In this document: positions 23,320 through 62,467 of the stretch, in pieces | How positions within the stretch are numbered: position 1 is the first letter of the stretch | How the letters are laid out: every line of letters begins with the position of its first letter | NCBI RefSeq assembly: GCF_038396675.1 | Contig: NC_088921.1 | Coordinates: forward strand, 62,607,501-62,671,500 | DNA from: Hydra vulgaris | Lineage: Eukaryota; Cnidaria; Hydrozoa; Anthoathecata; Hydridae | Direction of reading: 5' to 3' | DNA: 64,000 nucleotides | Translations under genes and position numbers: made by a program | The notes under the pieces: generated by a model | What the model was told of the DNA's origin: nothing | What the model saw: the letters and a program-made list of their open reading frames with translations, nothing else | Databases searched by the model: none

Positions 23320-23665
23320 ACATAGGTACATTAAGCTTTTTTTGAACTGTACCTTGAGTCACTTTCTGAAAATTAGGTTCAAATCCATGATAAATTTACA
23401 TTTAATTTAATCTTAGATTGTTTTCAATAAATATTTCTAGTAATACTTCATTGCAACACTTGAATATATAACAAAATTGACTAATAGTTCTGCGCAAAAT
23501 TACCAAATAAGTGAATGCATAAAATGGAAGTCCCAAAACAACTATGGGTTTTGAGATGCTGAGACATAGTACAAAATTAACTTCAGAAACATACAATAAT
23601 ATAAAATATACAAAATAACGCTGTCTCTGCGCATGCGTGACGCTTGCGTAGAACTGACTGTCTCC
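23320..23665 (-). mobile_element. Fragment of the 42-bp-end element (inverse)
   Basis: The sequence is the reverse complement of 34,715-35,320. It shares the run from GACTGTCAGTTCTACGCAAG through CTATGTCTCAGCATCTCAAA to AGAAAGTGACTC-AGGTACAG. The terminal CCGGTGTC end itself is missing. It is a truncated third copy of the family at 34,672-38,596. Confidence 0.75.
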
Positions 23666-24120
23666 TTAATTAACCATCTACTAGTAATAATAAGTAGAGC
23701 AACATGTAATAAAATATAACATGCGCCTAAAATATCACATCCCCCATAGAAAAACCGAAATCGAGAATGCGTTTTCAAGTTGTTGCACTTAGAAGTGTAT
23801 CTAGTACGTCCGAAATATTTATGTACAAAAACAATAAATTTAAAACGCAACGATCAAGATTCATAAAACGGTTTGTAAATAATATGCTATAAATGAAGTC
23901 AGCATTAAATGGTAATATATTTTAAATTCATACTTATAAAATTTTGATCTTAATATATTGCGTGACAATGATTATATAGATTACACATGAGGGATGTGAT
24001 TTTTAGATATCAAATACAAATACTTCGCAGTATTTTAAATGTTACATAGGAAGATGAATTTTTCTAGAAGCCTGGATAAGGGGGATGTGGTATTTTACGA
24101 AGGAATTTCAGCTTCTTTTT

Positions 24121-24435: not shown

Positions 24436-25066
24436 TTACACATAAGTAGGTACGTGGACTGATTTTTTTAAATTATTCAAATACTAGAATGTTATATATC
24501 ATTAGAAAGCTCTCAAATACAATATTTCAAAGGTGAAAAAATTACGAAAATCGGACAATTCTATAAAAAGTTATGACGTTTTTAGTAGCAAATTTTCGAT
24601 ATATGGATTTCTTGATAAAACTGTGGTCAAAAAAATTTTTTTTTTTACATAAATTGTTATAACATTGTCAATTCTTATTTAAAAATCTATAACTTGATAT
24701 CAAAAGATAGGTGTAAAAATGGGCTTTAATTTTAAATATTTTTCTAGGTAAATGGCGCATCAAGGGATCCAGAGGGGGTGCTAATCCACCACCGACACCT
24801 CACAAAAAACACTTTTTCTCCATTAAAGAGTATTTTTTTTATGAAATTGATAATATTTATGAATAAGATTTTGGTATTATTTTATTCTACATCACTATAG
24901 AGTATTACAGGTCTATCATAAAGTTGGGTGTTAGGTTGTGGGCAAGGTTTAACACACCCTATCAAAATTTCATTCTTTAAAATATTGTAATATTTACTAA
25001 AATGAGTAAATTATAAAAAATTAATATAACATTTTAATACTTTGAAAAATAGTAACTAGTGGTGTA

Positions 25067-25127
25067 TAAAATTACCTTTTAGGGGGAGGGGGCGGCATAC
25101 GCCCCCTCCCCCTAAAAGGTAATTTTA
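25067..25127. repeat. Perfect 28-bp GC-rich hairpin
   Basis: The arms 25,067-25,094 and 25,100-25,127 are exact complements around the loop GCATA. The arm core is CCTTTTAGGGGGAGGGGGCG. It is strikingly GC-rich for this sequence and lies in the non-coding 3' side of element copy 1. Confidence 0.95.
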
Positions 25128-25231
25128 TGCCCCTGCTGCCCTAAACCTGAAAAAAAAAATTAATAACAAATTCACAAAAAATGTTAAAATGCTTTCTTAA
25201 ACAGAGAGAAATAAGAATAAAAAACTAATTT

Positions 25232-25310
25232 ACCACATTACAAGATGAGTTTGAATATCCATTTTGTCCTTTAAAGGGACCGATTACCCACTCCAACCTT
25301 AACAAAAAAC
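25232..25310 (-). CDS. Candidate small exon, element copy 1
   Basis: On the minus strand, TTTTGTTAAG can act as acceptor. The following frame reads LEWVIGPFKGQNGYSNSSCN and then reaches GTGGTAAAT, a possible donor, or runs to a stop a few codons later. The GPFKG-x-GY-NS-C pattern recalls the Cys box of CYLD-like ubiquitin hydrolases (KG-QG-x-NSCYLD), but only about twenty residues are available. The downstream His and Asp boxes were not found. Treat it as a possible exon of unknown function. Confidence 0.25.
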
Positions 25311-25458
25311 ACACAAAAACAATAAGTATTTTGAAATAAAAAATGTAATTAAGTTTTGTCTTGGCTTTTAGTGAATGATTTAATTTTTCAATTCCATTAA
25401 TGAATAAAATTAAATCATTTTTAACAATAGACACCACGTGAAGGTAAGCCTATCAAAA

Positions 25459-25590
25459 AAATTTGCAAGCCATAAAACTTGCTGTACCATATTTGCAAGC
25501 TACAAAACTTGCGGTACTCATTTTGCAAGCCATAAAACTTGTTGTACCATATTTGCAGGCTACAAAACTTGCGGTACTCATTTTGCAAGC
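25459..25590. repeat. 30-bp in-frame minisatellite, copy 1
   Basis: About 4.5 units of TTGCAAGC(C/T)A(T/C)AAAACTTG plus GCGGTACTCATT or CTGTACCATAT alternate, so the higher-order period is 60 bp. The unit length is divisible by three, so an open frame crosses the whole array on the minus strand. It is homologous to the 30-bp array at 40,586-40,935 in the second element copy. Confidence 0.9.
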
Positions 25591-25600
25591 CATAAAACAT

Positions 25601-25775
25601 TTCGCCTAGGTCGACCTCTTCTGCCACGACCACTTGCAGTACCTCTGCTGCTGTCCCCAGCACTCCTGTTTGGGGGATAAAAGGACCATCTAAAAAGAGG
25701 GTCATCTTTGCCCCCAAACTGGATCCAACGCAAATATGATCTGTTGCTGGTGGGTCCAGGATGCTGGGTCCTGTA
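25601..25775 (-). CDS. Basic exon after the mini-exon array
   Basis: With acceptor CTTACATAG at ~25,780 and the phase set by the upstream mini-exons, the minus strand reads AYRVYRTQHPGPTSNRSYL, WIQFGGKDDPLFRWSFYPP and SGRGRRGRPRRNV. The RRGRPRR core is AT-hook-like. It ends in a stop just before the minisatellite. A competing acceptor (GTTTACAG) gives another frame, GPSILDPPATDHICVGSSL and onward, which stays open through the minisatellite to 25,421. I cannot decide between them from sequence alone. No known domain is evident beyond the basic motif. Confidence 0.4.
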
Positions 25776-26085
25776 AACCCTGTAGGCTATGTAAGCTTTA
25801 AAAGCAAATAAATAATAATTATATTAGTAACAAATGGCATTATGTAACACTTAATAAAAATTTTTTACTTGTTAAAGTTTATCTAAATATAAAAAATTAT
25901 TGACTAATAAATCACTGATAGGAAAACAAATTTTTAATAAGAGTAAAAATTTCAATACTGCTAGTGATTTTCCTTTTATGAGAATTCAAATGAAAACACA
26001 ATATAAATGTATTAAACAGAGTATATTAATAGGAATAATAAAAATTTGATAACCATTCAGATACATTTTTAATACATAAATTTAC

Positions 26086-27223
26086 CAGCAGAAGGTTGAG
26101 CAGGTGGAACTAAAGGTAGAAAAAGTTGTCATTTAAAGATATTGCAATTGCTAAGAAATGCGCACACATATTAAAAAGTAATAGTTTTTAGACATACCAG
26201 TCGTTGCAGATGAACATGAAACTAAGGTTAAAAAGTTGTAATAAGAAAAATTGTAATTGATGAAAAATGCATACACAATTAGAAGGTAAAATTTTTAAAA
26301 CTTACCAATCGTAGAAGATGAACACGGTCCTAAGGTTAAAAAGTTGTAATATAAAATTAATATAGCAAATAATGAATAATGGACACGCATATTAACAAGT
26401 AATATTATTTAGACATACCACTTGATGCAGAGGACGATGAAACAGAGGTAAAAAAAGTTTTAAAAAAGAAAATTATAGCAATTGATAAAAAAAAGCATAC
26501 ACAAATAGAAAGTAAAAATTTTAAACTTACCAATCGTACCAGATGAAGATGGTCCTAAGGTTAAAAAGTTGTAATAAAAAATTAATATAGCAAATGATGA
26601 AAAATGGATACACATATGAAAAAGTAATATTATTTAGACATACCACATGATGCAGACGACAATAAAACTAAGGTAAAAAAATTGTAATAAAAAACAAATA
26701 TTGGAATTGATGAAAAATACATATACATATTAGAAAGTAAAGTATTTAAAATATACCAATTGTAGCAGATGAGGATGTTCCTGAGGTTAAAAAGTTTTAA
26801 TAGAAAATAAATATTGCATTTGTTGAGAAATGCAGACACATATTAAAAAGTAATAGTTTTTAAACTTACCACTTGTTGCAGTTAAAGTTAGAACTAAGGT
26901 TAAAAGATTGTTATAAAAAATAAATGTTGCATTTGATAAGGAATGCATAACAGGTTTTTAGAACTTACCAACTGTACCAGATGAAGATGGTTCTAAAGTT
27001 AAAAAAGGAGTAAGACACCGCAAAAAAAAATAAGTTTAGCATTAAATATATTCACAGAATAAAAATTCCTGGTTTTCAAAATTACTAACTATAGCAAGTG
27101 ATGAAAGGAGAGTTAAACAAAATATGAGTTAAACCTAGACACACGTGTTTAAACTTTTGTTACAATGATTCATAACAAAGTTATAATATACAAACTTACC
27201 AATGGTAGACCTTGTCGATTCAA
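26086..27223 (-). CDS. Array of eleven 24-nt mini-exons
   Basis: Reading the minus strand, eleven units spaced about 110 bp each show a TTAG-type acceptor, exactly 24 nt of exon and a GTAAG or GTATG donor. Examples are at 27,200-27,223, 26,870-26,893, 26,198-26,221 and 26,086-26,109. All have the same phase (last base of a codon split, 1 nt left over). They can therefore be joined or skipped without changing frame. Each adds eight residues such as G-PSSSGTI, V-SCSSATT, G-PCSSSTI, V-SSSSASS and V-PPAQPSA: a Ser/Thr/Pro-rich, mucin-like repeat. One unit (~27,085) and one acceptor (~26,442) are decayed. The introns between them are also tandem copies, so the array arose by exon-intron unit duplication. 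Confidence 0.65.
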
Positions 27224-27239
27224 CTAAAGGTAACAAAAA

Positions 27240-28300
27240 AATTGTACGATAAAAAATAACACCTTGTAATTGCCAAAAGTAAGTTCAAAAAATAACAACT
27301 AAAAAATTAAAATATAAAGATTATATGTATATAAACAAGAAGCTAACATTAAGAATGGGTATATACTTATGTAAACAATAAACATATATAAACTAGTATA
27401 CATCAAGAAAAAGGTATAGACAATAATAATTATATCTTATATTTAAAAAAACTTTAGAAACATTAAGTTAATGCAAAAATGTTATGGGAACTATATTTAC
27501 GAAATCTCAAAAAATCTATAATGATAGTGCTAGGATCTTAACAAGAAGCAAATATTAGACATGTTTGTATAATTATTTAAATAATATTTATAGGAAGAAG
27601 TAGTATACAACAGGAAAATAATAAAAGAAGATGAGTGTAATTTTTATACCATTTTTAAACTAAACACCAAAAAATATGTCTGTTAAGAATAAATCAATAT
27701 GAATTTGATTTGTAGACTTCTATAGAAATTAAAAGAAAAGAAGCAAATTATACAAATCATAAAATAATTTATTTTTAACAAAGTATTTGTTAATATACAA
27801 ATAAGTATTATTAATACTTATTTGTGTATTAACAAATTTTTATACTTATATGATGTTTTAATGAACCTGTGAAATGATACTTTAATCTATCAATAAAATC
27901 AAAACAGTTTTAATTTAATAGTATTAGATTAAAACTGTATTATTAAAAATGTATTACTAAAAATGTATTAGTAATACATTAATCTTTTTATACTTAAGAT
28001 TATCTTACTATTAGTAAGATAATCTTAAGTATCTTAGTAATACTAAGTATCTTAGTAATACTAAGTATCTTAGTAATACTAAGATAAACAAAAAGAGTAA
28101 GGTTTTTACATTTATGTTTTTGTTTTAAAAATAGTTAGCAATAATATAATTATAAAAAAAAATTTGCTTACTATCTGTTAGAGAATCTATATATTTTTGT
28201 CTTTTTTTACCATTTTATCTGTTTTTACCATTTTATCTGTTTTTCTGTTATCTGTTATCTAATAATAAAAATAATGCAGAAAAAAAATTGTTTTTCTAAG
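27240..28300. other. Palindrome-rich AT interior of element copy 1
   Basis: No exon could be recognised. Short perfect palindromes cluster at 27,790-28,090, including AAATAAGTATTATTAATACT, AAGATTATCTTACTATTAGT with its complement, and a triple TACTAAGTATCTTAGTAA repeat. Confidence 0.55.
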
Positions 28301-28349
28301 AACTGCCCCCCTATCCGTCCCCGTATTTATATAGTTCGCTGTTACCGAA

Positions 28350-29030
28350 TAAAAATTCATTAAAACAGAAATTAGGTACCAAAAGTGCTGCACTTAGTTA
28401 TATATCTGCTCCCATTTTTTTTTTGCTGAAATTTGGCAGGTAAAAAGAAAATACATGTAGAAAGTAGAATAAATAATAAAAAAAGCGGGCTCAACATTTC
28501 TTTGATACAAAATTAATGTGAGAACATCGACTAAATTTTTATAGAAAATTGTCAGCAAAAAAATTCATAAAAAAGTTAGGCAACCATACTTAAAAATAAT
28601 ATAAGAATCAAGCTTGACCTTTCTTCTTTCAAAAAATATCCTATGTTTATATGTGTTTCTAAAAAGAAACACCTCAAAAAAACGTTTGCCTAAGGCTACC
28701 TAAAAAAAGTAGTATTTGTAGAATAACACATAGTAAACTATCTGCTCCCTTTTTTTTTTCTTTGAAAATTGGCATGTGCTTAGAAAATGCATGTAGAAAG
28801 TTAAATCAATAATAAAAAAAGCGGGCTCAACATTTCTTCTACTATAAATTAATGTGAGAACATATACTATATTTTCAGGACCATAACAAACCATGAAAAA
28901 TTAGTAACCATACATTAAAAGCCACATAAAAATCAAGATTAACCCTTCTTCTTTCAGAAAAATATCTAGGTTTATATATGTTTCTAAAAAGAAACACCAC
29001 AAAAAAACGTTTGTCTGACGCTACCTTAAA
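28350..29030. repeat. 336-bp tandem duplication near the right end of copy 1
   Basis: AAAAAGCGGGCTCAACATTT occurs at about 28,481 and again 336 bp later. The flanks (TCTGCTCCC-T-run, ATTGGCA-GT, ACATGTAGAAAG, AAAGAAACACC-CAAAAAAAC) repeat in the same order. The second element copy has one unit only (42,380-42,700), so the duplication is private to copy 1. Confidence 0.8.
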
Positions 29031-29103
29031 AAAAGTGAAAAAAACGTGGAACAAAATCTTAGCACAAAAATCGGCTCCGTAAAACGCGATTTCCGCGTAC
29101 CTA

Positions 29104-29765
<662 letters not shown>

Positions 29766-31030: not shown

Positions 31031-31580
31031 CCTTTCACTATCTTCAACTATGCAGCTTTTTTTTGTATATAATATCTCTAGAAAATTGCACATAAATTAA
31101 AATAAAAAGCCAACATTTGAAGAAAATATTTGAAGAAAATTTGTTAATACATACCTTCACTATCTTCAACTACAGAGCTTTTTATTGGTTCCTCTGCCTT
31201 ATTTGTCTCGTCTATAAAATTGAACATAAATATAAAATGATAGGCTAACAAATATAAATGAAACTGTAATTATTTAATACATACCTTGAAGTCTTTAACT
31301 ACGAAGCTTTTTATTGAATCTGCCTCCTCTACAAAACAAACCATACATTAAATAAAACTTTAACACTTATAAATGAAAAGGTAGTTTTTATTACATACCT
31401 TCACTATCTTCAACTAGAAAGCTTTTTATTGTCTCCTCTGCCTTATTTGCCTCTAAAAAAAATTGGATAGAAATTAAAATAAAAAGGTAACAAATATAAA
31501 TGCAAAGGTAATTTTTTAAGACACACCTTCACTATCTTTAACTACAAAGCTTTTAAGTATCTGCTCTGCCTTATTTGCTT
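31031..31580 (-). CDS. Array of five 54-57-nt mini-exons
   Basis: Five minus-strand units spaced about 120 bp show acceptor TAG, an exon and donor GTATGT or GTGTGT: 31,527-31,580 (54 nt), 31,399-31,452 (54 nt), 31,285-31,328 (shortened), 31,155-31,211 (57 nt) and a decayed one near 31,031-31,077. Intact ones share one phase and encode an acidic 18-19-residue repeat: ANKAEQILKSFVVKDSE, ANKAEETIKSFLVEDSE, ETNKAEEPIKSSVVEDSE. The surrounding introns are repeats too. They lie downstream of the integrase stop codon and upstream of the exon at 30,557. They are probably a second gene of the same element, or an alternative 3' part. Confidence 0.6.
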
Positions 31581-34290: not shown

Positions 34291-36906
34291 GTATCAGGGG
34301 CGGATCTAGGGGGTATCCTGTGTTGCCCAGGATTCACCCATAATATTATAAGAAGTTATAAAAAATTCCAATTCATAATATAAAAAATACTAAACTTAAA
34401 TTTATAGTATACTAATATGTATATATGAGTTCTTTAAAAAAATAAGTATTGCCTTCATAGAAAAACATACACGGCTTTAACAATGTTTCAAAGACTCTCT
34501 CTCTCCTCCGTGATGTTTCAAAACGCCGCTATTAAATCAGGATTCTTTTTTAAAGTAAACGGAACCGAAAGAACCCTTTTAATTAATCGTTATTGCAATG
34601 TATTTATTTTGGTTGCCGTAATTAAGGCCAAAAAAATCCCTATTGTTTCAGGATTCATTTGACCCGAATTTCCGGTGTCGCGTTAAATAAGTAGATCGTT
34701 AAATAAGTAGACAGTCAGTTCTGCGCAAGCGTAACGCCTGCGCAGATACAGCGCAAAGCTTCCGTTAGGTAGGTTAAATCTATCGTTAAATAAGTAGCCT
34801 TGTTTCCGTTAGGTATAAACGTAAAAAACAAAAATAATCATGTTTTAAAATTTTTTAAAATTATATAATTAAAATGCGAGTCTATAATTACTTTGTTGAA
34901 GATGTTTAGCAGTCCCTGATGGAATAATAAATTATTATAATAAAAAAGTGTCAACTTTGTGGTATGTGTATATATAACCCACTATTTAAGTTAAACTTTT
35001 ATATAATTTATGATTAAGAGTTAATTATTATTGTATATTTTATATTATTTTATGTTTCTGAAGTTAATTTTATACTATGTCTCAGCATCTCAAAAATCAC
35101 TGTTGTTTTGGGACTTCCATTTTATGCATTGACTTATTTGTCGATTTTGCTCAGAACTATTAGTCAATTTTGTTATGTATTTAAAAGTTGCAATTAAGTA
35201 TTACTAGAAATACTTATTGAAAACAATCTAAGACCAAATTAACTGTAAATTTATTATGGATTTAAATCTAATTTTCAGAAAGTGACCCTAGGTACAGTTT
35301 AAAAAAAGCTTGTTGTACCTAGGGCCACTAATTTTCAAACCCTTTTACTTGATGGAATTTTATTAGTATAAGTCAATATACTTATACTAATACAAAGTAA
35401 TTAGTATAGAGATGTGATCGTATCAGTTTTGCCTTCTTTAGACAAGTCTGGGGACTTGAATTTGGGCACTAAAAAAATCTGGCTATAGGTACACAAACTT
35501 CCCTTAGACCTTATTGGACCTCTTGCCTTAATTAAACTTGAAAAAAATATATTATTACAATTACTGATAATTGAAGTAAATATATTGAAAAATTAACAAT
35601 TTGTGCAACTACTTTATTTTATAGATTTTTGGTACTCTTCAAAAAAACTCTAAAATTTTAGATTATTTGATAAAGTCTGCTTATTTTCCTTAAACCAATC
35701 AATGAGAAAAAGGTTCAGAGTTTAAACTGGTAGCGGTAAAGGTTTGAAAAAAGCTATTTGTTAATGATAGTATCGTTGTAAAAAGGGGCTGTCGAAGTTC
35801 AAAATTTTTCTAAAGTTTTCTTTAAAGTTTGTCAATACAGTCTAAAGACAAGGCCTTAGATATTTTAAGAGACTCACCTTGCTGGCTTGATGATACCTTG
35901 ATTGATATAGCACAAAGCTTGTTTTTATATCAGTTTTCTAAAATGTTTGGGTTTCCAAGTTTAAAAAATCTGGATTTTTTGCATTTTTAGTTGTTTTAAT
36001 TCATGTGGTTTTTCAGAAAGTTACAGTTGTATGCAAACGATTAATGTTAGAAAATCATATTGGGTGTTTCTAAGTAATGTGTCCTGATGTTGTTTTACAT
36101 TAGTAGTGTGTTTAGTTTTATGATTCACTTTTTAATAGTTTAAGTAAAGGTGATGCGCCATTGTTAGTGCATAGAGTTGCACATGAAAATGATTGTGATT
36201 TTTTCTTAGAAAGAAATGCAATGGTTTTGTGTAGCAGTATCAACCTAAGTTTAGTTATGTAAAAAGATAATGACATGCGGTAGCATTACCTGAAATGTAT
36301 TGAGAATGGTAAATTAGAGATGTTTCCTTTTATTACTGTGTTATACTGTCATAAACAGTGTGTCTTTAGTACTATCAATGTTGTGAATATATCCTGTTAT
36401 TTCTACTGTTTTTGTTTTATGACATATTTGAATATTTAAATTCAATCAATATACGTAAATATGTTTTTTTTGTTTTTTATTGTTGATTTGTTTATGTACC
36501 TTATGTTCTAGTTAATATTTAAAAAATTCATTACTTATTTTATTTTTGTAAGTGTCTTATAGATGTCTAAAGTTATACAATTGGCTAATTTAGGTCAACT
36601 ATTGTTTGTTCTTTATTTTGTTATTGGCATGATGATTTGTTTTGCTCACTTTGTAGTTGTTTTTTTCTTACTGTCATCAGTTATTCAACTAGGGTTATCG
36701 ATATAAGATATAGTCAATAGGTACAGTTATTAAAGTCAGTTCTTTATTTACATACATTTTGTTGCAGTTGATTATAGCTACTATTACAACTACACTAAAA
36801 GTAGTATTTAAAAATATGGCTATGTAATTTTTAATTATAATGAGATATTTGATCAATTTTTTATAGAATATTGTGAAAGTATAGACTATTCTGGCATGTT
36901 GATATA

Positions 36907-37165
36907 TCTTTGATGGGCGGACATAAGAGTATAACTGCATTTTTGACCATTTAACGATTTATATGAGAAAATGTGACTTGTGTATGCCGGCATCAATGGT
37001 TTTAACAGTATAGTTACACCATTCGGTTCAAACAGAATAAAAGTAATAACCCATTTCTCAAAATATGACTTCTGTAGCAAAATAATTGGGTTCATAATAA
37101 TGTTTTTTTGCTCTCCTGAAAAGTTACACTTTTGCAGTTATACTCTTATGTCCGCCCATCAAAGA
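36907..37165. mobile_element. 259-bp MITE with TA target
   Basis: The terminal inverted repeat begins TCTTTGATGGGCGGACATAA and extends ~33 bp on both sides. TA flanks each end. Copy B of the host element lacks this segment (58,030-58,075 reads CTGGCATGTATATGCC without it), an empty-site comparison that confirms insertion. The TA target points to Tc1/mariner-type mobilisation. Confidence 0.8.
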
Positions 37166-37739
37166 TATGGCTGTTTTAACATTTTTAACATTTATTTGAT
37201 TTAAAAATTCAAATCCTTCAATTAGAGTTCATTTTGTAAATCAATTTATTGACATGCATTATTCAATGCATTTATTAAGTACTCTTCTGGCACAAAGGCA
37301 TTTTTATAATTATTTTATTTATTCGTTGTGATTTCATGATACTATTTATATTATACTATATTTCTATTCTATGTAGGCTTGTAATTCCATGTGGAAAAAT
37401 CGAATTTCTTCCGAAAATGCCCAAGTTTCAACCAAGTTAAATTTTTTCAAAAGGACTTAAAAACCATGTTGTTTTATTTTGCTATTTATATTGTGTAAGG
37501 ATATTATTTTTCTCATTGATGTGTAAGGATATTATTATGTTGATTTTATTTTCCAAATAAAGTTTTAGTGTAGCATGAAGTGTGTCGTTTCTTTAATATC
37601 GTTTGTATTTAAAACATTCTCATTGTAAGAAATAGTAAACTAAGTTTAGGTCACATTTTATTATTATTGCGCTATGCATACATTAAAATCGCTAAAATCG
37701 TCGAATAATACCCGTCTAGATTGTTATTCAACGGTAGTA

Positions 37740-38016
37740 CAGTAGTGGTGTAGTGGTAGAGCGCTCGCCTCATAATTAAAAAGTTCTGAGTTCGATCGCT
37801 ACCGCGTCCCTGGCAATACCGCGCTCAACTTGTTTCTCCACGTAGCGATCTTGATCGTCATGGTTTGTGTTTCGAAGTTATAGACTTGAGAGAGGGTTGT
37901 AAAAACAACTAAAGCAGCCTCCTTGACTGTAGTGTCTTTTTCGGCTTTGAGGAGGTAAATTAACACACAAAAAAAGGCTAGACACGAACTAATAAATTCT
38001 CTTCTTTTCTTTTTTC
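37740..38016 (+). mobile_element. tRNA-derived SINE
   Basis: The head GTGGTGTAGTGGTAGAGCGC holds a pol III box A (TGGTGTAGTGG, 37,746-37,756). GAGTTCGATCGC at about 37,788-37,799 is box B, at tRNA-like spacing. A CTCGCCTCATAATTA stretch sits where an anticodon arm would be. A tRNA-unrelated body follows (37,805-37,995), ending in a pyrimidine-rich tail. It is absent from copy B of the host element. It does not fold into a full tRNA 3' half, so it is a SINE and not a tRNA gene. Confidence 0.75.
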
Positions 38017-38827
38017 TGGGATAATATCAGAATGCTGTCCTTACTATTTATCTGCGTAGAATCAAGTAACAATTACAAATTTTACAATCATTAAGTTTAA
38101 GGGTTAAGGATAAATAATTTAACGTAAAACATTTTGCTAAAATGCACAGTTAAATTATTTAGGAATACAATAAACTTCCTTGTGAGATGAGTATTTTATT
38201 TGATATCATTAATACGGGTGAATGGCCTATCAAAAAGCTTTTTCTTAAAAATGTGTTTCTTGTCATACTATACTATAAAGATATAAATTGCGACTAGAAT
38301 ATACGTCGTGAGTTAAATATTATTAAAAGTAGTAAATTATCACTATAAAAATGCCCTTAAGTAATAACAATTCGCATGGCAAAGGAAATGCTTTTAGTTC
38401 GGTTAACGTATGTTTTTTTTTAAATTTGTTAGTCTGGGTTAGCAAAATGCCTCGATTGTTCAGTTTGTCTACTTATTTAACGATCTACTTATTTAACGTG
38501 ACTTAATACGTTAAATAAGTATCCGTAAACTAACGCATGCGCAGAATATCATTTTGTCTACTTATTTAACGATCTACTTATTTAACGTGACACCGGTAGA
38601 CAACAAAAAAAAGTTGCAGGAACGTTTCATCAAAAGGGTTCTCTCGGTTCCGTTAATATGTAGAAATGAATCCTTAATTATTCCAATAACGCCTTAATTA
38701 TTCGTATAAACTTTATTCGAATAATTAAAGCTTTAAAATAAAGCTATAAGTATTCGAATAAATTGAAGTTTTATCAAAAATTAGTTTAAAGTAATTTTTA
38801 ATACAAATTTTATTTTTGTTTGCAATT

Positions 38828-39027: not shown

Positions 39028-40585
39028 GTATGAGTTTAAACGCGTTTTTTTATGTTTTATTTTGTTTATAAAAAAACAATAATTCTTAACAAATAACCTT
39101 TAGTTAGGTACGTGAGTAAAAAATTTCAAATTGTTTGAATACTATAATGTTATATATCATTAGAAAGAGGATTATTACAGTATTTTAAAGGTGAAAAAAT
39201 TATCAAAATCGAACAATTGGTTCAAAAGTTATGACGGTTTAAGTAGCGATTTTTTCTATATATGGATTTGTTGAAGAAACTGTGGTCAAAATAATGCTTT
39301 TCTTCACTTAAATTGTCATAACTTTGCCAATTCTTATCGAAATACAAATATCTTGGTGTCAAAAGATAGGTGTAAGAGTGGGTTACAACTTTATGTTAAA
39401 CTCTAACCACCGGGTGTATCGGATGGACAGAGGGGGCACCAAACCACCACCTCGCCCATATAAAACTGGACACTTTTTTCAGAAATTTTTTTTTTTTTAA
39501 ATTACATAAGCAATATAAATACACAAAAAAGTTATTTTAAATTTATAGTAAACCACCAAAATAAACGAGAGGTGAATGTTAGCAATAGAGGTGGGTGTGG
39601 GGGCGATTGGTGTATCACACCCTAGGATCAAAAACGACTTGATTTTATAAATATTTATATCTTTACTATAATGAGTAAAATTAGTACACAATATAAAATT
39701 ATGTTATACAATCTTACGTATAAAAGTGGTGTTTCTATTACAAAGGGGCGTATGCCCACCACCTGCCTACCCCCCCCCCCCCCCCCACCTCTCCACCCAA
39801 CCTAAAAAAAAAATATTTTTTTCAAAATTTGAACAATAAATTTAAAAAACAAATTAAAAAATTGGAAATAAATTAAAAAATAAATTCATACCAGACAACC
39901 ATCAAATATGGGAGGTTAATGTAAAACTCACAGTAGATATGTTGATGATGTTTTAGTACTATAATATCAAAAAATGTTTCAATTCTTGAAATATCTGTTT
40001 GAATATTTAAAGTACAACAACAAAGAAGTAAAAAACATATTCCACTAGATTAAAAAATACATTAGTGGTGCATCCATGGTCATAAGAGAGTGGAGTTTAA
40101 AAGAGGGCGTATCCAAATATGTCATAAGAAAGAGGCATTCTAATGCCCTTTCCACTTCTTACCAAAAATTATTATTTAATTGGATATATATTACAAAAAA
40201 AATTATACAACTACTAATGTGGGGCTATAAGTCAATTGGCTGTAAAAAACATGTCATCTTTCTAACCAAGTATAGCAAAAACCTATAATAAAGTCTTTCA
40301 TGTGATTATTACATTAACAGAAGTAAGGACCATACAGTATAGTTAACGAGCTAGCCATTTTGTTTGGTTAACAAACAAATTTTCTGTTTCAAAATAAAAA
40401 ATAAATAAAATATTAAAAAATAATAATAATAATATAAAACTGTTTTAAAGAAAATACAATATATTTTTGTGTTGGCTTTTAGTGAATGATTAAAATAATT
40501 AATTCCAAAAATGAAACTGTTTTAACCATTTTTAACGATAGACACCACGTGAAGGTAAGCCAGAGCCGTCTATCAAAAAATTTAA

Positions 40586-40935
40586 CAAGTCACAACACTT
40601 GCTGTATTATTTAGGCAAGTCACAACACTTGCTGTATTATTTAGGCAAGTCACAACACTTGCTATATAATTTATGCAAGTACAACACTTGCTGTATTATT
40701 TAGGCAAGTCACAACACTTGCTATATAACTTAGGCAAGTCACAACACTTGCTATATTATTTAGGCAAGTCACAACACTTGCTATATAATTTATGCAAGTC
40801 ACAACACTTGCTGTATTATTTAGGCAAGTCACAACACTTGCTGTATTATTTAGGCAAGTCACAACACTTGCTGTATTATTTATGCAAGTCACAACATTTG
40901 CAATACATTTTTGGCAAGTCACAACACTTGCAGTG
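40586..40935. repeat. 30-bp minisatellite, about 12 copies
   Basis: AAGTCACAACACTTGCTGTA plus TTATTTAGGC repeats with a 30-bp period (one unit has lost a base near 40,680). Variants are CTATATAA and TTATGC. It is homologous to the 4.5-unit array at 25,459-25,590 in copy 1 and sits at the equivalent place, just right of CACCACGTGAAGGTAAGCC. Confidence 0.95.
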
Positions 40936-40969
40936 TTATTAAATTAATTAAATTGTAACTCACCGGAAA

Positions 40970-41480
40970 CAACATCAGCAGCAAGCTGGATCTTTTTCAT
41001 GCAATAGTCAACAGCTTCATTATCAGTTTCATCATCTTTCCAGTAAGAAATGGTGTAAATGAAGTCATTTTTTCTTTTATTAACTTTTTTTACTCTGCCG
41101 CGATGTAAAACACCTTTGCATGTCTTTGGATCGTACCATTCATGTTCTAGTTTCTTCCCAACAATTCTATCTGACATGACATCTTCTAAATCAAATAGTT
41201 GGTCATTGAATAAGTGCTTATATGAATTAATAATCTCTTCAAAATTTAATTTAGATAGGTCACGCTCTAACTTTCTTTTTTCTTTTTCATCCATTTTTTG
41301 GCGCTTGATTTTTTGTCTTTTGCAAATCTCATCTCCTACTTTGCATCGATAGAGTCGATTTGTAAATCTGTTTTTACGTGCAACATTAATTGACCATTTA
41401 ACAATCTTTTCTCTTAAACTTAAATCTAGAGTGTCTAGATAGTCGACAGTCCTATTCTTTTTTGATCTAAGAACTGTATT
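40970..41480 (-). CDS. Lysine-rich exon of element copy 2, unknown family
   Basis: The minus strand stays open from ~41,470: NRTVDYLDTLDLSLREKIVK, NVARKNRFTNRLYRCKVGDE, KRQKMDEKEKRKLERDLSKL, FEEIINSYKHLF, SDRIVGKKLEHEWYDPKTCK, then GVLHRGRVKKVNKRKNDFIY and YCMKKIQLAADVVSG at the donor GGTGAGTT (~40,967). The first half is a charged, coiled-coil-prone helix. The second half (W-D...W-x-G-x-V...Y-x-I-x-Y-W-x-D) looks like a small beta-barrel of chromo/Tudor type. It ends in the same codon phase as the mini-exons of copy 1. I do not recognise the family. It is probably the C-terminal half of a transposon protein. Confidence 0.55.
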
Positions 41481-41645
41481 TGATAAAGAACTGTATTTGA
41501 TAACTAAGTAAATGACTAAATACTAAATTAATTCATGTAATAGGGATATAACTGACTGATCCTCTGTAAAGCAAGTTCATCTAAACAAATTAAATTAACT
41601 TTATTTTTACAAAGTAATATAAAAATTTGCATATAGTAAGTCATT

Positions 41646-41755
<110 letters not shown>

Positions 41756-42810
41756 AATGTACTCTTCCTGATGATCCAGCAATGGTGAAACTTCGAGTCG
41801 AAGATAAAAGTTAGATGAGTGTTTTTTACTAATTTATATATATATATTTAAGTTATACATAAAGGTTTAGATAGTGGCCAAATAATAATTTAAAATTAAT
41901 TTAATAAATTTATATAAAAATAACTTATTTATTAGTTATAAATTATAATCTAAAGGCTTTCCTTGTTAAATAAAGACAACGTTCAAACTTCAAATTAGAT
42001 ATGATTCATAACTAATTTGATTCATATATAAACTATATTATGAATATGATACAAAATACTATGTGAAACCTTTATTTTCTTTCTCCATTTTGTTTCTAAA
42101 TAAAATATAAAATTTAAGTCTTATTTTATTATTTACTAAAAATCCTTTTAATAAAACAATTTTGTTTAAATTTACATATTTTTAAATCATATTTTCACTA
42201 TAAAGTATCTAGGTTTATAATATCAATTTATGAAATAAGTTAAATATTGCTAATAATATTATTAATATGAATGTTATATATAAAAAAAATATATATATAT
42301 ACAAATAATCAATGGACCCCTCTGTCTCCCGCGCTAACAACAGGGAAAATGTAAATTAGGTAACAAAAGTGCAGCAAGAAATAGGGTGACTGCTACATAA
42401 TATTTTTCAACGAAAATTGGCAGGTGCATAGATAATTGAATAACTTAAAAATAAAAATTGAATAGATAAAATATAGACTATATCCTGGACATTAATTTCA
42501 CCACAGAAGTACAACTAAAACTTTGACATCAATAAACTCGGTAATATATCAATTGAGTATAATTAAAACCAAATTAATAATAAGCTTCAACTATTCTTCT
42601 TTCTAAAAATACTCTATTTTGATAACGAATACTAAAAAGTTATTTCAGAAAGCCTTCCTCAAGCACGCTAACTTTAAAGAGACTGCGAAAATCGTGGCAC
42701 AAAATTTTAGCACAAAATTCGGTTCCGTAAAACGCAATTGTCACGTACCTACTTTAGTTAAATATGTTTTTTTTAGTTATATTTAGTTTATATATGATAT
42801 GACTTTACAG

Positions 42811-45800
42811 GTCAATGGAAAATGGTAACTGTCTTTACAACTCTGCTGCTTTATTAATAAATTCATCAAATAAAACACATGAAATTCTTCGACTATTAAC
42901 TTCTGTTGAGTTGTTTGAGAAAGCAACCTTTTATTCAAGATACCCAATAATCTTAAACCAAGTGGAATCTAAAAGTTTTTCTTCACTCTCTAGTGTTTTC
43001 ATGGCATGTGTTTCATTTGAGTCTTCTGATTCTTTTACAGAATTAAATGATATAAATATTTCTGAACTTATAAAAAAAGAAGCCTATAACAATTGCAGAA
43101 ACAATAAATTTGCTTCTTTTCTTTGTTTAATTGCATTATCTACAGTGTTAAATAAGCAAATTCGTTCTGTTTATCCTGAATTCGGACTTGAAAAATATAA
43201 AAAGTTATTTAATGTGAGTATATACCCACGTGGTGATCATAAAACAAATAAAGAAATTCTGAGTATTTTATGGTGTAACACTGATTGTCGCTCTATTTCC
43301 AAAGATAAAGATATGTGGTCACCAAATCATTTTGTCCCTATTGTGAAAAGAGAAGTTTTATGCTTAAAGAAATTTGTCAAAAGTGATTTAAAAAGAGGAT
43401 TGTGTTCAGTTTTGCCAAGTGTTCTATTGCATTCTTCTGTTACCACTAAGGTTCTTAATTTATCTTGTCAACCTCCTAAAAATCCATTTTCTAATAAAAA
43501 ATCATTAGTTCAATCTCACATAAAGTTTTGCATAGATAATGAAACTAAAATTGTAGATGTAAATATTGATATTACTCCTAATCCAATCTTAGTTAATTGT
43601 ATTCCTTGTACATCAGATCAGCCTTCAAGCCTTCCTTTTTATGATGTTTCTACTTACTATGAGCGCGGTAGACATCTATCTGCTGGCAAAGATGATTCAA
43701 TGTTATTAGATCTAGTTAATAAAATATTTATTCCTAACTTGTCTTTTGTTTTTCCTGTTTCTGGTGAAAAAAAAACCGATCATTTTTATATAAATGGCTA
43801 CTTGAATATTCCTGGTTAGCTTACTCACAGATTGAAGATGGAGCATACTGCCTTCCATGTACACTGTTGGGTAGCAGAATTCCAAACAATACCACAATAA
43901 TCAACTTTATTCAAAAACCTTTTAAAATATGGGGTAATGCAACTCGTGCTTATATGGATCACAATAATAATTGTCGACTTCATCAAATGTCAATGCATTG
44001 TCTGAACATGCTGCAATCTAGATCTAATTCAAAAAAAATCTGATTGAAGTTGATATTGATAATCTAAGAAAAAAACTTATTATAAGTAATCGAAATAAAT
44101 TAATTCCAATTATAAAGACAATTATTTTTCTTGGCCGCAAAGATATTGCTTTTCGAGGTCATCGTGACAGTAAGTATCATCCACAGATTGGAGAAACATG
44201 TAAAGACAACATTGGTATAGGTAACTTTGTAGAGCTTTTAAATTTTCGTATTGAAGCAGGTGATAAAGTTCTTGAGCACCATATTCGTTCTGCTCCTAAA
44301 AATGCAACTTATATATCTAAAACCGCACAAAACGAACTTATTGAATGCTGTGGAAAAACAATCGAAGAAGTTCTAATTAAGAAAATTAAAAAGTCAGATT
44401 ATTTTTCTATCTTGTGTGATGGAGCCTCTGATTGTTCCAATGTTGAACAGCTATCTCTAGTTATAAGATACATTGACTGTGATAATGTTATTTGTGAAGA
44501 CTTTCTACGGTTTATTGAATGTAAATCTGGTACAACTGGTCTTAGTCTTTCGCAAAACATAATTTCTGCAATTGATGATCTTGGTCTTGATATCCAAAAA
44601 TGTAGAGGTCAAGGATATGATGGTGCTGGGGCAATGTCTGGTAAATTAAAAGGTATTTCATCTAGAATTAAACTTATCAATTCAAAGGCTATTTTTGTTC
44701 ACTGTGCATGCCATAAACTTAATTTAGTTATTAGTAAATCATGCAATGTTCAGAGTGTTAGAAATGCTCTTGATCAAATCAAAGATATATCATATTTTTT
44801 TAACTTATCACCTAAACGTGCTAGCTGTCTCAATAAATTCATTTTTCCTGGTCAAGCAAAATTAATTGATACATGTCGAGCTAGATGGGTTCAGAAACTT
44901 AAAAGTCTGGATGTTTTTTTGATAACTACATATCCGTTTTTCATTCAATGGAAGAAATGGCATACAATGAAGGTAAGAGTTATAATATTGATACTTCTTC
45001 AAAAGCTTCATGTTTTTTAAATCTTATGACAAATTTTTCTTTTATTGTGAGCTTAGTTTTAACAAAACAAATAATGGACTATTTCTACGCCATCGCTGTT
45101 GTTCTCCAAACTAAAGCATTTGATATATCACAACAGTGTAATGAAATAAATTGTTTAAAAACTCAAATTTTAGATTTAAAAAAAAATATTGATGTCTATC
45201 ATAACGAATGGTACTTAATTGCTCTTGACCTAGCTAAGACTCTTGATGTTTCAGAAGTTAAACCAAGGCTCTGTGGCAGACAAGTTTATAGAGATAATTA
45301 TCCCTCTGACACAGTTTCAGATTATTTCAAATATTCCATCACATCTCCTCTTCTAGATCATTTAATTAATGAATTAGAAGATAGATTTGATGAAGGTGAG
45401 ATGATTGTTTACAAAGGTTTATCTGGTATTCCTGCAACTGTTGTAAAAAAAAATAAAGAAAAATGTTTTTGGAAATCAGATTATATGGAATTTTTGCATT
45501 TTTATATATCGGATATGCCTCATCCTACATCAATTCATGCTGAATTAGATTTGTGGGAAACATTTTGGAACAATCAATCTGTGATCCCATCCACAATTTC
45601 AGAGAATTTAAAGTCTATTGATATGAGGGGTTTCCCAAACATTAGGGAAGGTTTTTTAATAATGGGAACATTTCCAATTACTACATGTGAATGCGAGAGG
45701 AGCATTTCTGTTATACGCAGACTGAAAACTTATATGCGAAGCCGCATGACAGAGTCAAGATTTAATTCTTTAGCTCTGATGTCTATTCATCAAGAAATAA

Positions 45801-45874
45801 TTCCTGATGTAGAAAGAGTTTTAAATATTTTTTCTGTTTTAGGGGAACGACGCTTAGAGTTGGTTTTTACCTAA
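42811..45874 (+). pseudogene. OTU-like/hAT transposase, exon 2 onward
   Basis: After acceptor TTTACAG, S-MENGNCLYNSAALL carries the Asn-Cys of an OTU/vertnin-like Cys box (usually DGNCL-RS). DMWSPNHFVPIV near 43,313 is the matching C-terminal His box. Next come HFYINGYL, a frame change near 43,790, and WLAYSQIEDGAYCLPCTLLG, the TTF-type zinc region of P52rIPK/ZMYM6-like hAT proteins. The hAT core follows: FLGRKDIAFRGHRDSKYHP, FSILCDGASDCSNVEQLSLV (first Asp), GYDGAGAMSGKLKGISSRI (second Asp), HCACHKLNLVIS. The gene ends with a C-terminal dimerisation block, GFLIMGTFPITTCECERSIS and RRLKTYMRSRM (45,650-45,750). A second frame change lies near 44,940-45,000. The structure is otherwise complete, so decay is recent. 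The Cys-box Asp is Glu (MENGNC), which may weaken any protease activity. Confidence 0.85.
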
Positions 45875-56151: not shown

Positions 56152-58949
56152 ATACAAGTAAACAATTTGTGTTAAAAGTGATAATAAACATGTTCATACA
56201 CTTATTCATATGTATAGAAAAATGCATCTTACGTTACATCTTTAAATCATTATTACAAAAAATTGTGACGTGCTACAGCATAACTGATTACATATTTGGA
56301 ATCAGCACGTCTGAATTAATAAAGATAACCTAATTTGGTTCTTGTTTTTTTCAAAAAGTTAAAAATTGTTGTACAGTGTAATTAAAGTAATTTAAGATTA
56401 AAATAGTTAAAAAAGTAAATCTAAGATTAAATAAACTTTTAATCAAGTTAATGTGTCTATCTTTGCTGCAAATTTATTATGGAGGTAAACCTAATTCTCA
56501 GAAAGTGACCTTAGGTTTATTCAAAAAAAGCTTATTGTACCTAGAGATGTGATCATATCAGTTTCACCGATTTTAGACAAGTCTGGGGCCTTAAATTTGG
56601 GCAATGAAATCTGACCCTAAGTACACGAACTTCCCTTAGACCTTATTGGACCTCTTGCCTTAACAAAACTTGGAAACAAATTTATTATTACAATTACTAA
56701 TCATTGAAGTAAATGTATTGAAAAGTTAACAATTTATGTTTCTACCTAATTTTGTAGATTTGGTGCTCTTCAAAAAACTTTAAAATTTTTGATTTTTTTA
56801 ATAAAGTCTGCTTGTTTCCCTCAAACCAATCAACAAGTAAAAGTTTTAGAATTTAAACTAAAAATTATAAAGTTTTGAAGAAAACTGTTTGTTAATGATA
56901 GTATCATTGTAAAAAGGAGCTGTAGAAGTTCAAAGTTTTCTAAAGTTTTATTTAAAGTTTGTCAATACAGTATAAAGGCAAGTTTTTAAATCACCTTGAT
57001 TGATATAGCAAAAAGTTTGCTTTTACATCAGTTTTCTAAAATACCTGGTTTTTAAAGTATAAAATAGTTGGGCTTTGTGCCTTTTTAGTCGCTTTATTTC
57101 AGGTGGTTTTTCAAAAAGTTATGTTTTTGTGCAAGTGATTAATGTTAGAAAATTATATTGGGTGTTTCTAAGTAATGTGTCTTGATGTTGTTTCACATTC
57201 AAAGTGTGTTTAGTTTTATGGTTTACTCTTTAATAGTTTAAGTAAAGATGATGCACCATTGTTAGTTCATACAGTTGCAAATTGAAATGATTCTGATTTT
57301 TTTGTAAGAGGAAATGCAACAGTCTTGTGAAGCGGTATAAACCCAAGTTTAATTATATGGAAAGATAATGATATAAGACAACATTATCAAAAATGTATTG
57401 AGAATGGTAAATTGAAAATGTTTCATTCTGTTACTGTGTTATAAAAATCGTTAAACGTATGCCTTTAGTACTATCAATGTTGTGAATGTATCCTGTTATT
57501 TCTGCTGTTTTTTTGTTTTGTTTTTGTTTTATGACTTGTTTGAATATTTAAATTCAATCAATATAAAATTCAATCAATCAATATAAAATTCAATCAATAT
57601 AAAAAAATTATTTTTGTTTTTTATGGTTGGTTTGTTTATGTACCTTATGTTTTAGTCAATAATTAACGAGTTCATTATTTATTTTATTTTTGTAAGTGTC
57701 TTATAGATGCTATATAATTGGTTTATTTAGGTAAACTATTGCTTGCTTATTTTTTCATTATTTGCATGATGATTTGTTTTGCTCACTTTGTAGTTTTTAT
57801 TTCTTACTGTCATCAGCTATTCATTTTATCAACTAGGGTTATTGATATTAGATATAGTTTATAGGCACAGTTATTAAAGTCAGCTTTTTATTTACAAACA
57901 TTTGTTGCAGTTGCAGTTAACTAAAATTACTATTACAACTACCACAAAAGTAGTATTTAAAAATATGTTCTTTTTTAATTATAATGAGATATTTGAACTA
58001 TTTTTTTGTTGAATATTGTAAGTATAGGCTGTTCTGGCATGTATATGCCATGACTTTTAACATTTTTAACATACTTGAATCTTTGAATCATATGATTCAA
58101 ATCCTTTTGGCACATATTTAGTGTTCATTTTGTAAATCACTTGTTGACATATTATTATCAATGCATTTGTTAAGTACTTTTCTAACACAAAGGCAGGTAT
58201 TTTTTATTTTATTTTTTGATTGCGATTTTATGATTTATGTTATACTAAATTTCTATACTATAGGCTTGTAATTCCATGCAGAAAAATTGAGTTTCTTCCA
58301 AAAATACCCAAGTTTCATCAAAGTTCAATTTTTCAGAAGAAATTAAAAAACATGTTATTTTATTTTGTTATTTATATTGTGTAAGGATATTTTGATCTTA
58401 TTTTAAAAATAAAGTTTTAGTTAAGCATGAAGTGTGTTGTTGCTTTAATGTTGTTTTTAATTGAAACATTTACATAGTAATAAATAGTAAACTAAGTTCA
58501 AGTCACATTCTATTATTGTTGTGCTATATACATTAGGGTGTGTCATACTATGGTCAAAATTTAAAAATTCATACTTATCAGTGGCATTTTTAAGAAAAGC
58601 GTGAGGTTTAACATATTAAATTCAGAACTATCAAAAAATTTGAATTAAAATGAGTTTAAGCTACCAGGGAACTGCCTTGAAAATTGCCAAATTTGATATT
58701 TTTATATTTTCAGGGTCAATTTCAATATTTTAGAGTTATATCTGCCTCACAACAACCGTATCAAAAAAAAATTATAGCAGGATAAGCAAAATTCATTTAA
58801 TAGTTATACTGTTTCAGAAATTTTGGTTCACAAAATACTTAAAAATTAGTATTTATGCAAAGTTTTGTATGTAATTTAACTTATACATTTTATTTGATGA
58901 ACACAAAACTTTATTCAAAAGTTCTTTGCTTTAATATTTGTTATGCAAG

Positions 58950-59022
<73 letters not shown>
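58950..59022. repeat. (AT)n microsatellite
   Basis: About 36 AT units in the 5' leader of the element's gene. Confidence 0.95.
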
Positions 59023-59026
<4 letters not shown>

Positions 59027-59083
59027 ATATAAATTTATATCTTTCTAATTTTAAAAGTTTCTAGATAAAAAATTAAAATTAAA

Positions 59084-61554: not shown

Positions 61555-62467
61555 AAATGTTTAAGAATTATTCTTTATTGTACTTTATTTTAATAAACGC
61601 CAGTAAATGTTGTGTGGATCTATATAAAAGTTTTATTTTTAGTTCCAAAACAACCTAATTTTACAATTTCAGTGGGAGGCAGTGGGAGGGGGCAAACCCC
61701 TCTATTTGTTTTTACAAAAAAAAATTTTTTTTTTAAAAGAGATGACGTTTTTTTACGTTTTGTAAGTTTTTTTTTTAATACTTCCATTTTTTAAGTTTTT
61801 ACCTCCCCCTTCCCCGGGCTTTTGGTGAAATAGTCTCACTGACTTCCTGGTAGCAAAAAAAAATTTTTTTTAATTTTTTTATTTAACGGTTCTGAACTTT
61901 AAATATTATACCTCACCCTTTTTTAAAATATGCAAAAAAAATCATTGAACAATTACTTTTAATCATTGAACAATCATTGAACAATTACTTTTAATCGAAA
62001 AGCTTAATTAATAGTGAAAACTTTTCCTTAATTTAGTATTTTTGCGTATTTACAGATCAAAAACTTTTACAATTGTTAGGTTTAAGGGTTAAAGATTTAT
62101 TAATCTAACGTGAAACATTTTAATAAAATGCGCAGTCAAAATATTTAGAAATATAGTAAACTTGTTCGTGAGATGATATTTTATAATTTATTTTATTTGA
62201 TATCATTAAAGTTATTTCTTGTCATACTATACTATAAAGATATAAATTTTGACTAAAATATACACCGTGAGTTAAATATTATTAAAAGTAGTAGACTATC
62301 ACTATAAAAATGTCGTAAAATAATTATAAATCACATGACAAAAGAAATGCTAAGTTCGGTAAACTTATGTTTTTTTTTTAATTTTTTCGTCTGGCTTAAC
62401 AACAAATACCTTGACTGTTCAATTTGTCTACTTATTTAACGATCTACTTATTTAACGTGACACCCGG

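Follow-up and report, generated by a model that had tools for sequence, protein, structure and literature searches.

A few host genes are known to contain arrays of very small exons, and Davis is said to have described in 1988 tandemly repeated Schistosoma exons that encode 81-base repeats. The schistosome micro-exon genes (MEGs), as presented in the part of the source available to us, have very short exons, mostly multiples of three nucleotides, introns that range from 100 to nearly 5,000 bp, alternative splicing and few conserved motifs, and they encode secreted parasite proteins (PMC10526429). Among transposons, Ginger1 is characterized in the available excerpt by 4-bp CCGG/CCGT target site duplications (TSDs), TGTNR ends, a Gypsy-like integrase and 0–4 introns; intron-bearing genes are reported there for Hydra transposons, together with one GT-TG intron, in Aplysia (PMC2836005). 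For Dada, the accessible text gives TSDs of 6–7 bp, small RNA genes as targets, Dada-U6 and Dada-U1 elements without terminal inverted repeats (TIRs), and a C/DxxH motif common to hAT, P, Kolobok, MuDR and Dada (PMC3706591).

Among the papers listed in our search of the open literature, none describes micro-exon arrays in the gene of a transposon. In the window (the whole 64,000-nucleotide stretch of Hydra vulgaris DNA analysed here) a mobile element has such an architecture, and the element has many copies in the genome and belongs to one of several families that share it. The array is probably the middle of ORF1, an accessory gene of this transposon, and its micro-exons, spliced as predicted from the sequence, would form a linker that grows in steps. 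The anatomy is directly observed and recurs in six families.

The array and the transposon that carries it

The array occupies positions 27,223–26,086 of the minus strand and consists of ten tandem exon-plus-intron units, each with an exon of exactly 24 nt. The predicted micro-exons, all on the minus strand, read VESTRSTI (micro-exon 1, 27200–27223), EPSSSGTV (2, 26969–26992), VLTLTATS (3, 26870–26893), GTSSSATI (4, 26757–26780), VLLSSASC (5, 26644–26667), GPSSSGTI (6, 26531–26554), VSSSSASS (7, 26419–26442), GPCSSSTI (8, 26306–26329), VSCSSATT (9, 26198–26221) and VPPAQPSA (10, 26086–26109), the last being the counterpart of the last unit in the copies L064 and L063. The first intron is 207 nt long and the remainder are 75–89 nt. 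Tandem Repeats Finder reports periods of 113 (7.2 copies) and 225 (3.5 copies); two unit types alternate along the array (by eye), which fits the 225-bp double period. The donor is GT in 10/10 units and the acceptor AG in 9/10, unit 7 having TG. All ten units can be read through in phase 1, whereas at least one has a stop in phase 0 and at least one in phase 2.

The first-pass annotation had counted eleven units, each with an acceptor. An unaided scan for AG-N24-GT does give 11 matches, but two are off-register and the real unit at 26442 is passed over because its acceptor is TG; within the first intron, of 207 nt, the same scan has no match. In the 40 aligned rows (the window and 39 other copies), unit 7 lacks AG in 21, is intact in 18 and has a defective donor and length in one. 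The observation is thus partly confirmed: the 24-nt length, the donor of every unit and the single codon phase stand, the count is corrected to ten, and the location inside a transposon is borne out by TIRs, TSDs and copies at 39 other genomic places.

This transposon copy is 4,657 bp long (24447–29103, minus strand), with limits set by its TIRs and by the ends of copy alignments at or near both positions. It is a non-autonomous element from which the transposase is absent through internal deletion. Its TIRs are TAGGTACGCGG (29103–29093) and CCACGTACCTA (24457–24447), and the flanking sequence carries an 8-bp TSD, CTTATGTG, on the 5' side of the gene (29104–29111) and on its 3' side (24439–24446). 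TIRs and TSDs are features of cut-and-paste DNA transposons, and this element has both, its TSDs being 7–8 bp long. Subterminal tandem repeats of 30 bp with a GCAAGT...ACTTGC palindrome lie at 25461–25598, and the copy is inserted in a satellite of about 215 bp.

When the region was compared by BLAST with the 39 fetched copies, many of the alignments among the matches listed stopped at or near 29,103 and 24,447. The exact end string TAGGTACG is found in 27/39 fetched stretches, CGTACCTA in 20/39 and both in 18. Perfect direct repeats of 7–8 bp flank 15 of these 18 two-ended copies, as they do the window copy (by eye); L022 has one mismatch, and L015 and L017 are ambiguous. L040–L042 and L044 have one flank in common and are not independent insertions, and the same holds for L019 and L021. 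The genome searched, in which the window occupies C2:62,607,501-62,671,500, comprises 911.5 Mb in 15 contigs and yields at least 44 matches to the array, a lower bound on copy number since 40 of 255 first-look candidates were scored. In L014 (C7:15146600-15153100), the stretch matching window positions 27609–27088, which includes exon 2 and micro-exon 1 of the gene described below, is present in four tandem copies at steps of about 547 bp, an exon–intron duplication on a larger scale.

The window holds a related second element at 39105–42751 (minus strand; TIR TAGGTACGTGA, TSD ACTAAAG, ends and TSD by eye). It has both ends and the 3' 30-bp palindromic repeats in common with the array element and retains the C-terminal part of the transposase at 40944–41522; no 24- or 27-nt unit was found in its stretch 42,760–41,500.

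The window has several other features. A Ginger-like integrase is present on the minus strand at 33387–33169, with pieces to 31890; one piece matches Integrase_H2C2 (E 9.9e-14), and two others have no Pfam match. Beside it, at 31032–31580 (minus strand), is a second exon-like array of five AG/GT units with EANKAEETIKSFLVEDSE-like repeats; by eye its units are 54, 54, 44, 57 and 46 nt long, two of these lengths not being multiples of three. The 586-bp region of this array has at least 42 genome matches (40 of 52 candidates scored), and six copies in the same direction form a tandem cluster with 8.4–9.0 kb steps at C4:17913412-17957863. Another repeat family has two copies, at 35243–38596 and 56466–62464, which are 79% identical over 1.5 kb and have TCTACTTATTTAACG end repeats in common, and an inverted fragment at 23323–23682. 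The inverted repeats 23,323–23,613 and 35,031–35,321 were considered as the ends of a 12-kb element and rejected, as parts of them also match the copy at 56.5 kb. The plus-strand open reading frames at 42803–45874 resemble, by eye, those of a vertnin/OTU-like protein and, after it, of a hAT-like transposase.

ORF1 and its transposase partner

The predicted layout of ORF1 is exon 1, a 36-nt exon 2, the run of micro-exons and a terminal exon with an AT-hook-like end. In the window, exon 1 is a remnant running from start codon to donor (28172–28213, minus strand), out of frame by eye and of a length that differs from other copies. Exon 2 (27501–27536, minus strand) reads NPSTIIIDFLRF; one motif search found its 36-nt counterpart in 26/39 other copies, and by eye it is also present in L064 (36 nt) and in L063, where it has 35 nt and is hence out of step. 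In L017, L028 and similar copies, exon 1 reads MEKKDLQKYIDSLTD and exon 2 NPSTIIIDFLRF (by eye), and no signal peptide was noticed by eye in MEKKDLQKYIDSLTD-NPSTIIIDFLRF. The terminal exon (25581–25795, minus strand) is shortened by an internal deletion in the window subfamily. It ends in GRGRRGRPRR, which we take to be an AT-hook-like motif, and it has no Pfam match above cut-off.

In older copies, the terminal exon carries on where the window subfamily is deleted, and these copies extend into a 3.4-kb transposase region. A genome search with 80 amino acids of the terminal exon in its older form gives at least 150 matches (150 of 965 candidates scored), and one with 310 amino acids of the transposase at least 132 (128 of 2,122 candidates scored), at 45–100% identity. 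Open transposase frames of 942, 939 and 949 amino acids are found in L056, L058 and L062. Several terminal-exon matches stand just upstream of a transposase match; examples are C15:22736449, with the transposase at C15:22738281, and C3:56266996, with the transposase at C3:56268829, and all four matches are stop-free. This arrangement indicates that the terminal exon belongs to a second gene, ORF1, accompanying the transposase.

Other loci connect the same parts. Of the three downstream stretches fetched, L048 and L050 align for about 3.3 kb past the terminal exon and L049 for 1.2 kb. In the overlapping stretches L038 and L050, the transposase region is contiguous with the array and terminal exon; L050 includes the terminal-exon end, transposase frames that are broken and a 3' end of the usual kind, and the 5' part of this copy, before window position 27,573, has no match. 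A copy on C12 combines the 5' end, array and terminal exon (L033) with transposase pieces downstream (L052). No single copy among those examined has all parts intact.

The ORF1 frame continues past a shared NGG to a similarly placed stop in L055, L056, L060, L052, L053 and L065; L057 and L058 do not have this stop. Stops inside the terminal exon occur in L050/L051, L056, L057, L058 and L060. Since L056 and L058 have such stops despite an open transposase, ORF1 may be dispensable in cis. The transposase has DDE-like and CxxH-like residues, recognized by eye only, with NCHLH following conserved D residues. Its matches to Pfam are weak and below cut-off, it has none among PDB sequences, and of 147 viral-contig stretches that fitted a search pattern, none was confirmed as a relative.

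ORF1 would thus be a small accessory gene of a family of cut-and-paste DNA transposons, with a transposase of about 940 amino acids downstream. Predicted splicing would join the phase-1 micro-exons, which measure 24 or rarely 27 nt, to give a flexible Ser/Thr/Val/Pro/Ala linker, tethering a short N-terminal part to a conserved terminal domain with a putative DNA-binding, AT-hook-like basic tail. Each duplication of a unit would add eight residues and leave the frame unchanged, so that linker length moves in steps; as the predicted junctions around the array are all in phase 1, units could be gained, lost or skipped in the same way. An acceptor-like AG stands five bases (phase 1) ahead of the transposase ATG in 6/6 loci read. 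Because of this AG, ORF1 and the transposase may, though less securely, derive from one pre-mRNA by alternative splicing, and the upstream ORF1 exons could feed the transposase through it. The window copy, a deletion derivative presumably moved in trans, would carry its array as a passenger.

Unit arrays in other families, selection and alternative readings

The window array was compared with those of five further families, taken from the 150 scored terminal-exon places: L063, L064 and L065 were chosen for their open transposase frames, and L066 and L067 by hand. Identity of the terminal exon to the query is 66% for L066, 57% for L064/L056, 56% for L063/L058, 51% for L067 and 48% for L065. A sixth comparison, L068, has lost most of its array (by eye) and is left out of the counts.

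The number of units varies between families: 10 in the window, 7 in L064, 5 in L063, 5 in L066, 3 in L067 and 3 in L065. There are 33 units in all, 31 of 24 nt and two of 27 nt, with GT in 33/33 and AG in 30/33; phase 1 is open in 33/33, phase 0 in 23/33 and phase 2 in 30/33. These fractions carry an ascertainment bias, as the units were hand-picked on homology or on the AG-24-GT pattern. A spacing scan of the five other arrays, with the 24-nt pattern fixed beforehand on the window, is free of this bias: it finds 17 instances of YAG-N24-GTR, whereas 500 mononucleotide shuffles, in which dinucleotides were not kept, average 1.0 and reach 5 at most, and no spacing from 12 to 60 other than 24 exceeds 5, though the counts are not independent because tandem units have common ancestry. 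Introns of the arrays measure 75–230 nt across families, with mixed remainders modulo 3 (7, 13 and 7 of 27). In composition the units are S 29%, T 20%, V 15%, P 10% and A 10%; of the initial reading, an eight-residue repeat rich in Ser and Thr and in one codon phase is supported.

In a nearest-neighbour comparison, the first units of the four closer families are most alike among themselves, and last units match across the window, L064 and L063, with L066 as the exception among the four. Several middle units are most like a neighbour of their own family: identity reaches 85–90% for units 2–4 of L064, 90% for units 3–4 of L066, and 89% for units 6/8 and 82% for units 5/7 of the window. Some middle units are instead closest to units of another family. 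The likeness of neighbouring middle units, up to 90%, supports the initial proposal of exon-plus-intron duplication, which took place separately in at least three families (the window, L064 and L066), on top of older duplications.

Purifying selection acts on the terminal exon and the transposase. In comparisons of the terminal exon between families, pN/pS is 0.31–0.48 in 24/28 pairs and 0.57, 0.64, 0.71 and 1.46 in the others, computed on BLAST-aligned codons only (26–80 per pair) with stop codons skipped; dN/dS of the transposase is 0.27–0.29 in 3/3 pairs. The micro-exons have a pN/pS of 0.97 within families and 0.91 between them, and no excess of variation at third positions. As their letters show no constraint, it is the length, the phase and the splice sites that are kept around a Ser/Thr-rich linker; the presence of the linker and its frame would then outweigh its letters.

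The first-pass annotation had named in advance, as evidence against its reading, 24-nt blocks no better conserved than the introns, and in the window family the exons do vary as much as the introns, a result against constraint there. Shared and singleton variants per site are 0.158 and 0.40 in exons, and 0.146 and 0.42 in introns, after L040–L042, near copies of L044, had been dropped. Relaxed constraint is expected here, since this family lacks a transposase. Among 382 unit-copies of the window family (18 of 400, with almost no letters, were set aside), length is 24 in 365, AG is present in 345 and GT in 351, and the frame is open in 378. In families with a working transposase, the predicted spliced frame would be kept while the linker letters drift; in the deletion family nothing would be kept, as the gene presumably no longer matters there.

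In 17 hand-picked well-aligning copies and the window, singletons per site are 0.154 in the array, 0.130 and 0.126 in the flanks next to it, and 0.468 in the 3' 850 bp. An apparently slower evolution of the array (0.42 versus about 0.9 singletons per site in the flanks) is gone in these copies, and we take it as an alignment artefact of truncated copies.

These data bear on whether the array is coding. It could be a non-coding tandem repeat, its splice-like signals and 24-nt spacing frozen by duplication and nothing being spliced. The absence of constraint on exon letters, within the window family and by codon position, agrees with this, and duplication alone copies spacing. A genome search with the joined exons adds that, of 89 candidates, the 40 scored places all match the terminal exon and extend no more than nine bases upstream of it; no spliced retrocopy is found among them. 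However, units of different families differ at about 40–50% of sites and intron lengths change, yet spacing, phase and splice sites persist; moreover, the units of the five other families stand upstream of the conserved terminal exon and in step with its frame. We consider a non-coding repeat unlikely.

Tandem repeats close to transposon ends often bind transposase, and an array acting as DNA in this manner, with its coding appearance secondary, would be in keeping with the other repeats of the element, the 30-bp palindromes near its 3' end. The array lies mid-element, however, and diverges like its neighbouring flanks; L068, one of many similar terminal-exon matches, has lost most of it, and the stretch of the second window element noted above has no unit. 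A function as DNA is therefore very improbable. The array might also be part of the adjacent Ginger-like element or of a captured host gene, as the integrase piece and its own exon-like array on the same strand (33.6–31.0 kb) would suggest. This is scarcely credible, as the array element's own ends, its TSD and its copies at 39 other loci rule out a part of the Ginger-like element, and ORF1 accompanies an unrelated transposase in several families.

Significance and comparison with known systems

With a coding linker in ORF1 as the preferred reading, the comparison of families shows that what seemed a one-copy curiosity recurs in the gene of a transposon. Unit numbers from 3 to 10 form a natural series for studying the duplication of exon–intron units, and the comparison raises the questions of how the spliceosome defines successive 24-nt exons and whether a transposon tunes a protein by splicing. 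A further pointer is to a two-gene transposon group that is unclassified and whose transposase has no Pfam family above cut-off. Tentatively, the elements may represent a large group of animal DNA transposons, not classified so far, that encode an accessory protein beside the transposase. The linker of this protein would grow and shrink in eight-residue steps through micro-exon/intron duplication, which would have occurred independently in several families; splicing might set linker length per cell and decide whether accessory protein or transposase is made.

Among described transposons, and within what the available parts of the sources cover, Dada has TSDs of nearly equal length, and NCHLH resembles the CxxH of Dada and other C/DxxH transposases, by eye only. 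The array element is not a member of Dada: it has TIRs, and its 12-base flanks are AT-rich or satellite by eye. Like Ginger1, as far as the excerpt describes it, the element is a Hydra transposon with (predicted) introns in a gene, and the TG acceptor of unit 7 has a parallel in the Aplysia GT-TG intron. It differs from Ginger1 in its TAGGTACG ends, its other transposase and its micro-exon array, and membership is rejected since its TSDs are 7–8 bp of other sequence, not 4-bp CCGG/CCGT.

The remaining likenesses are with host genes. As in the Schistosoma case of Davis, to judge from its title, a protein repeat unit is encoded by separate tandem exons, the 81-base repeat being more than three times as long as the ORF1 unit. 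The closest architecture is that of the schistosome MEGs, as they appear in the accessible part of their description. Like them, ORF1 has a row of tiny exons in multiples of three, here predicted: 33/33 units are multiples of three and all are in one phase. Few motifs are conserved in either, and the alternative splicing of MEGs may have a counterpart in ORF1. Unlike them, ORF1 lies within a transposon and combines introns of 75–230 nt and units of 24 or 27 nt with an AT-hook-like end.
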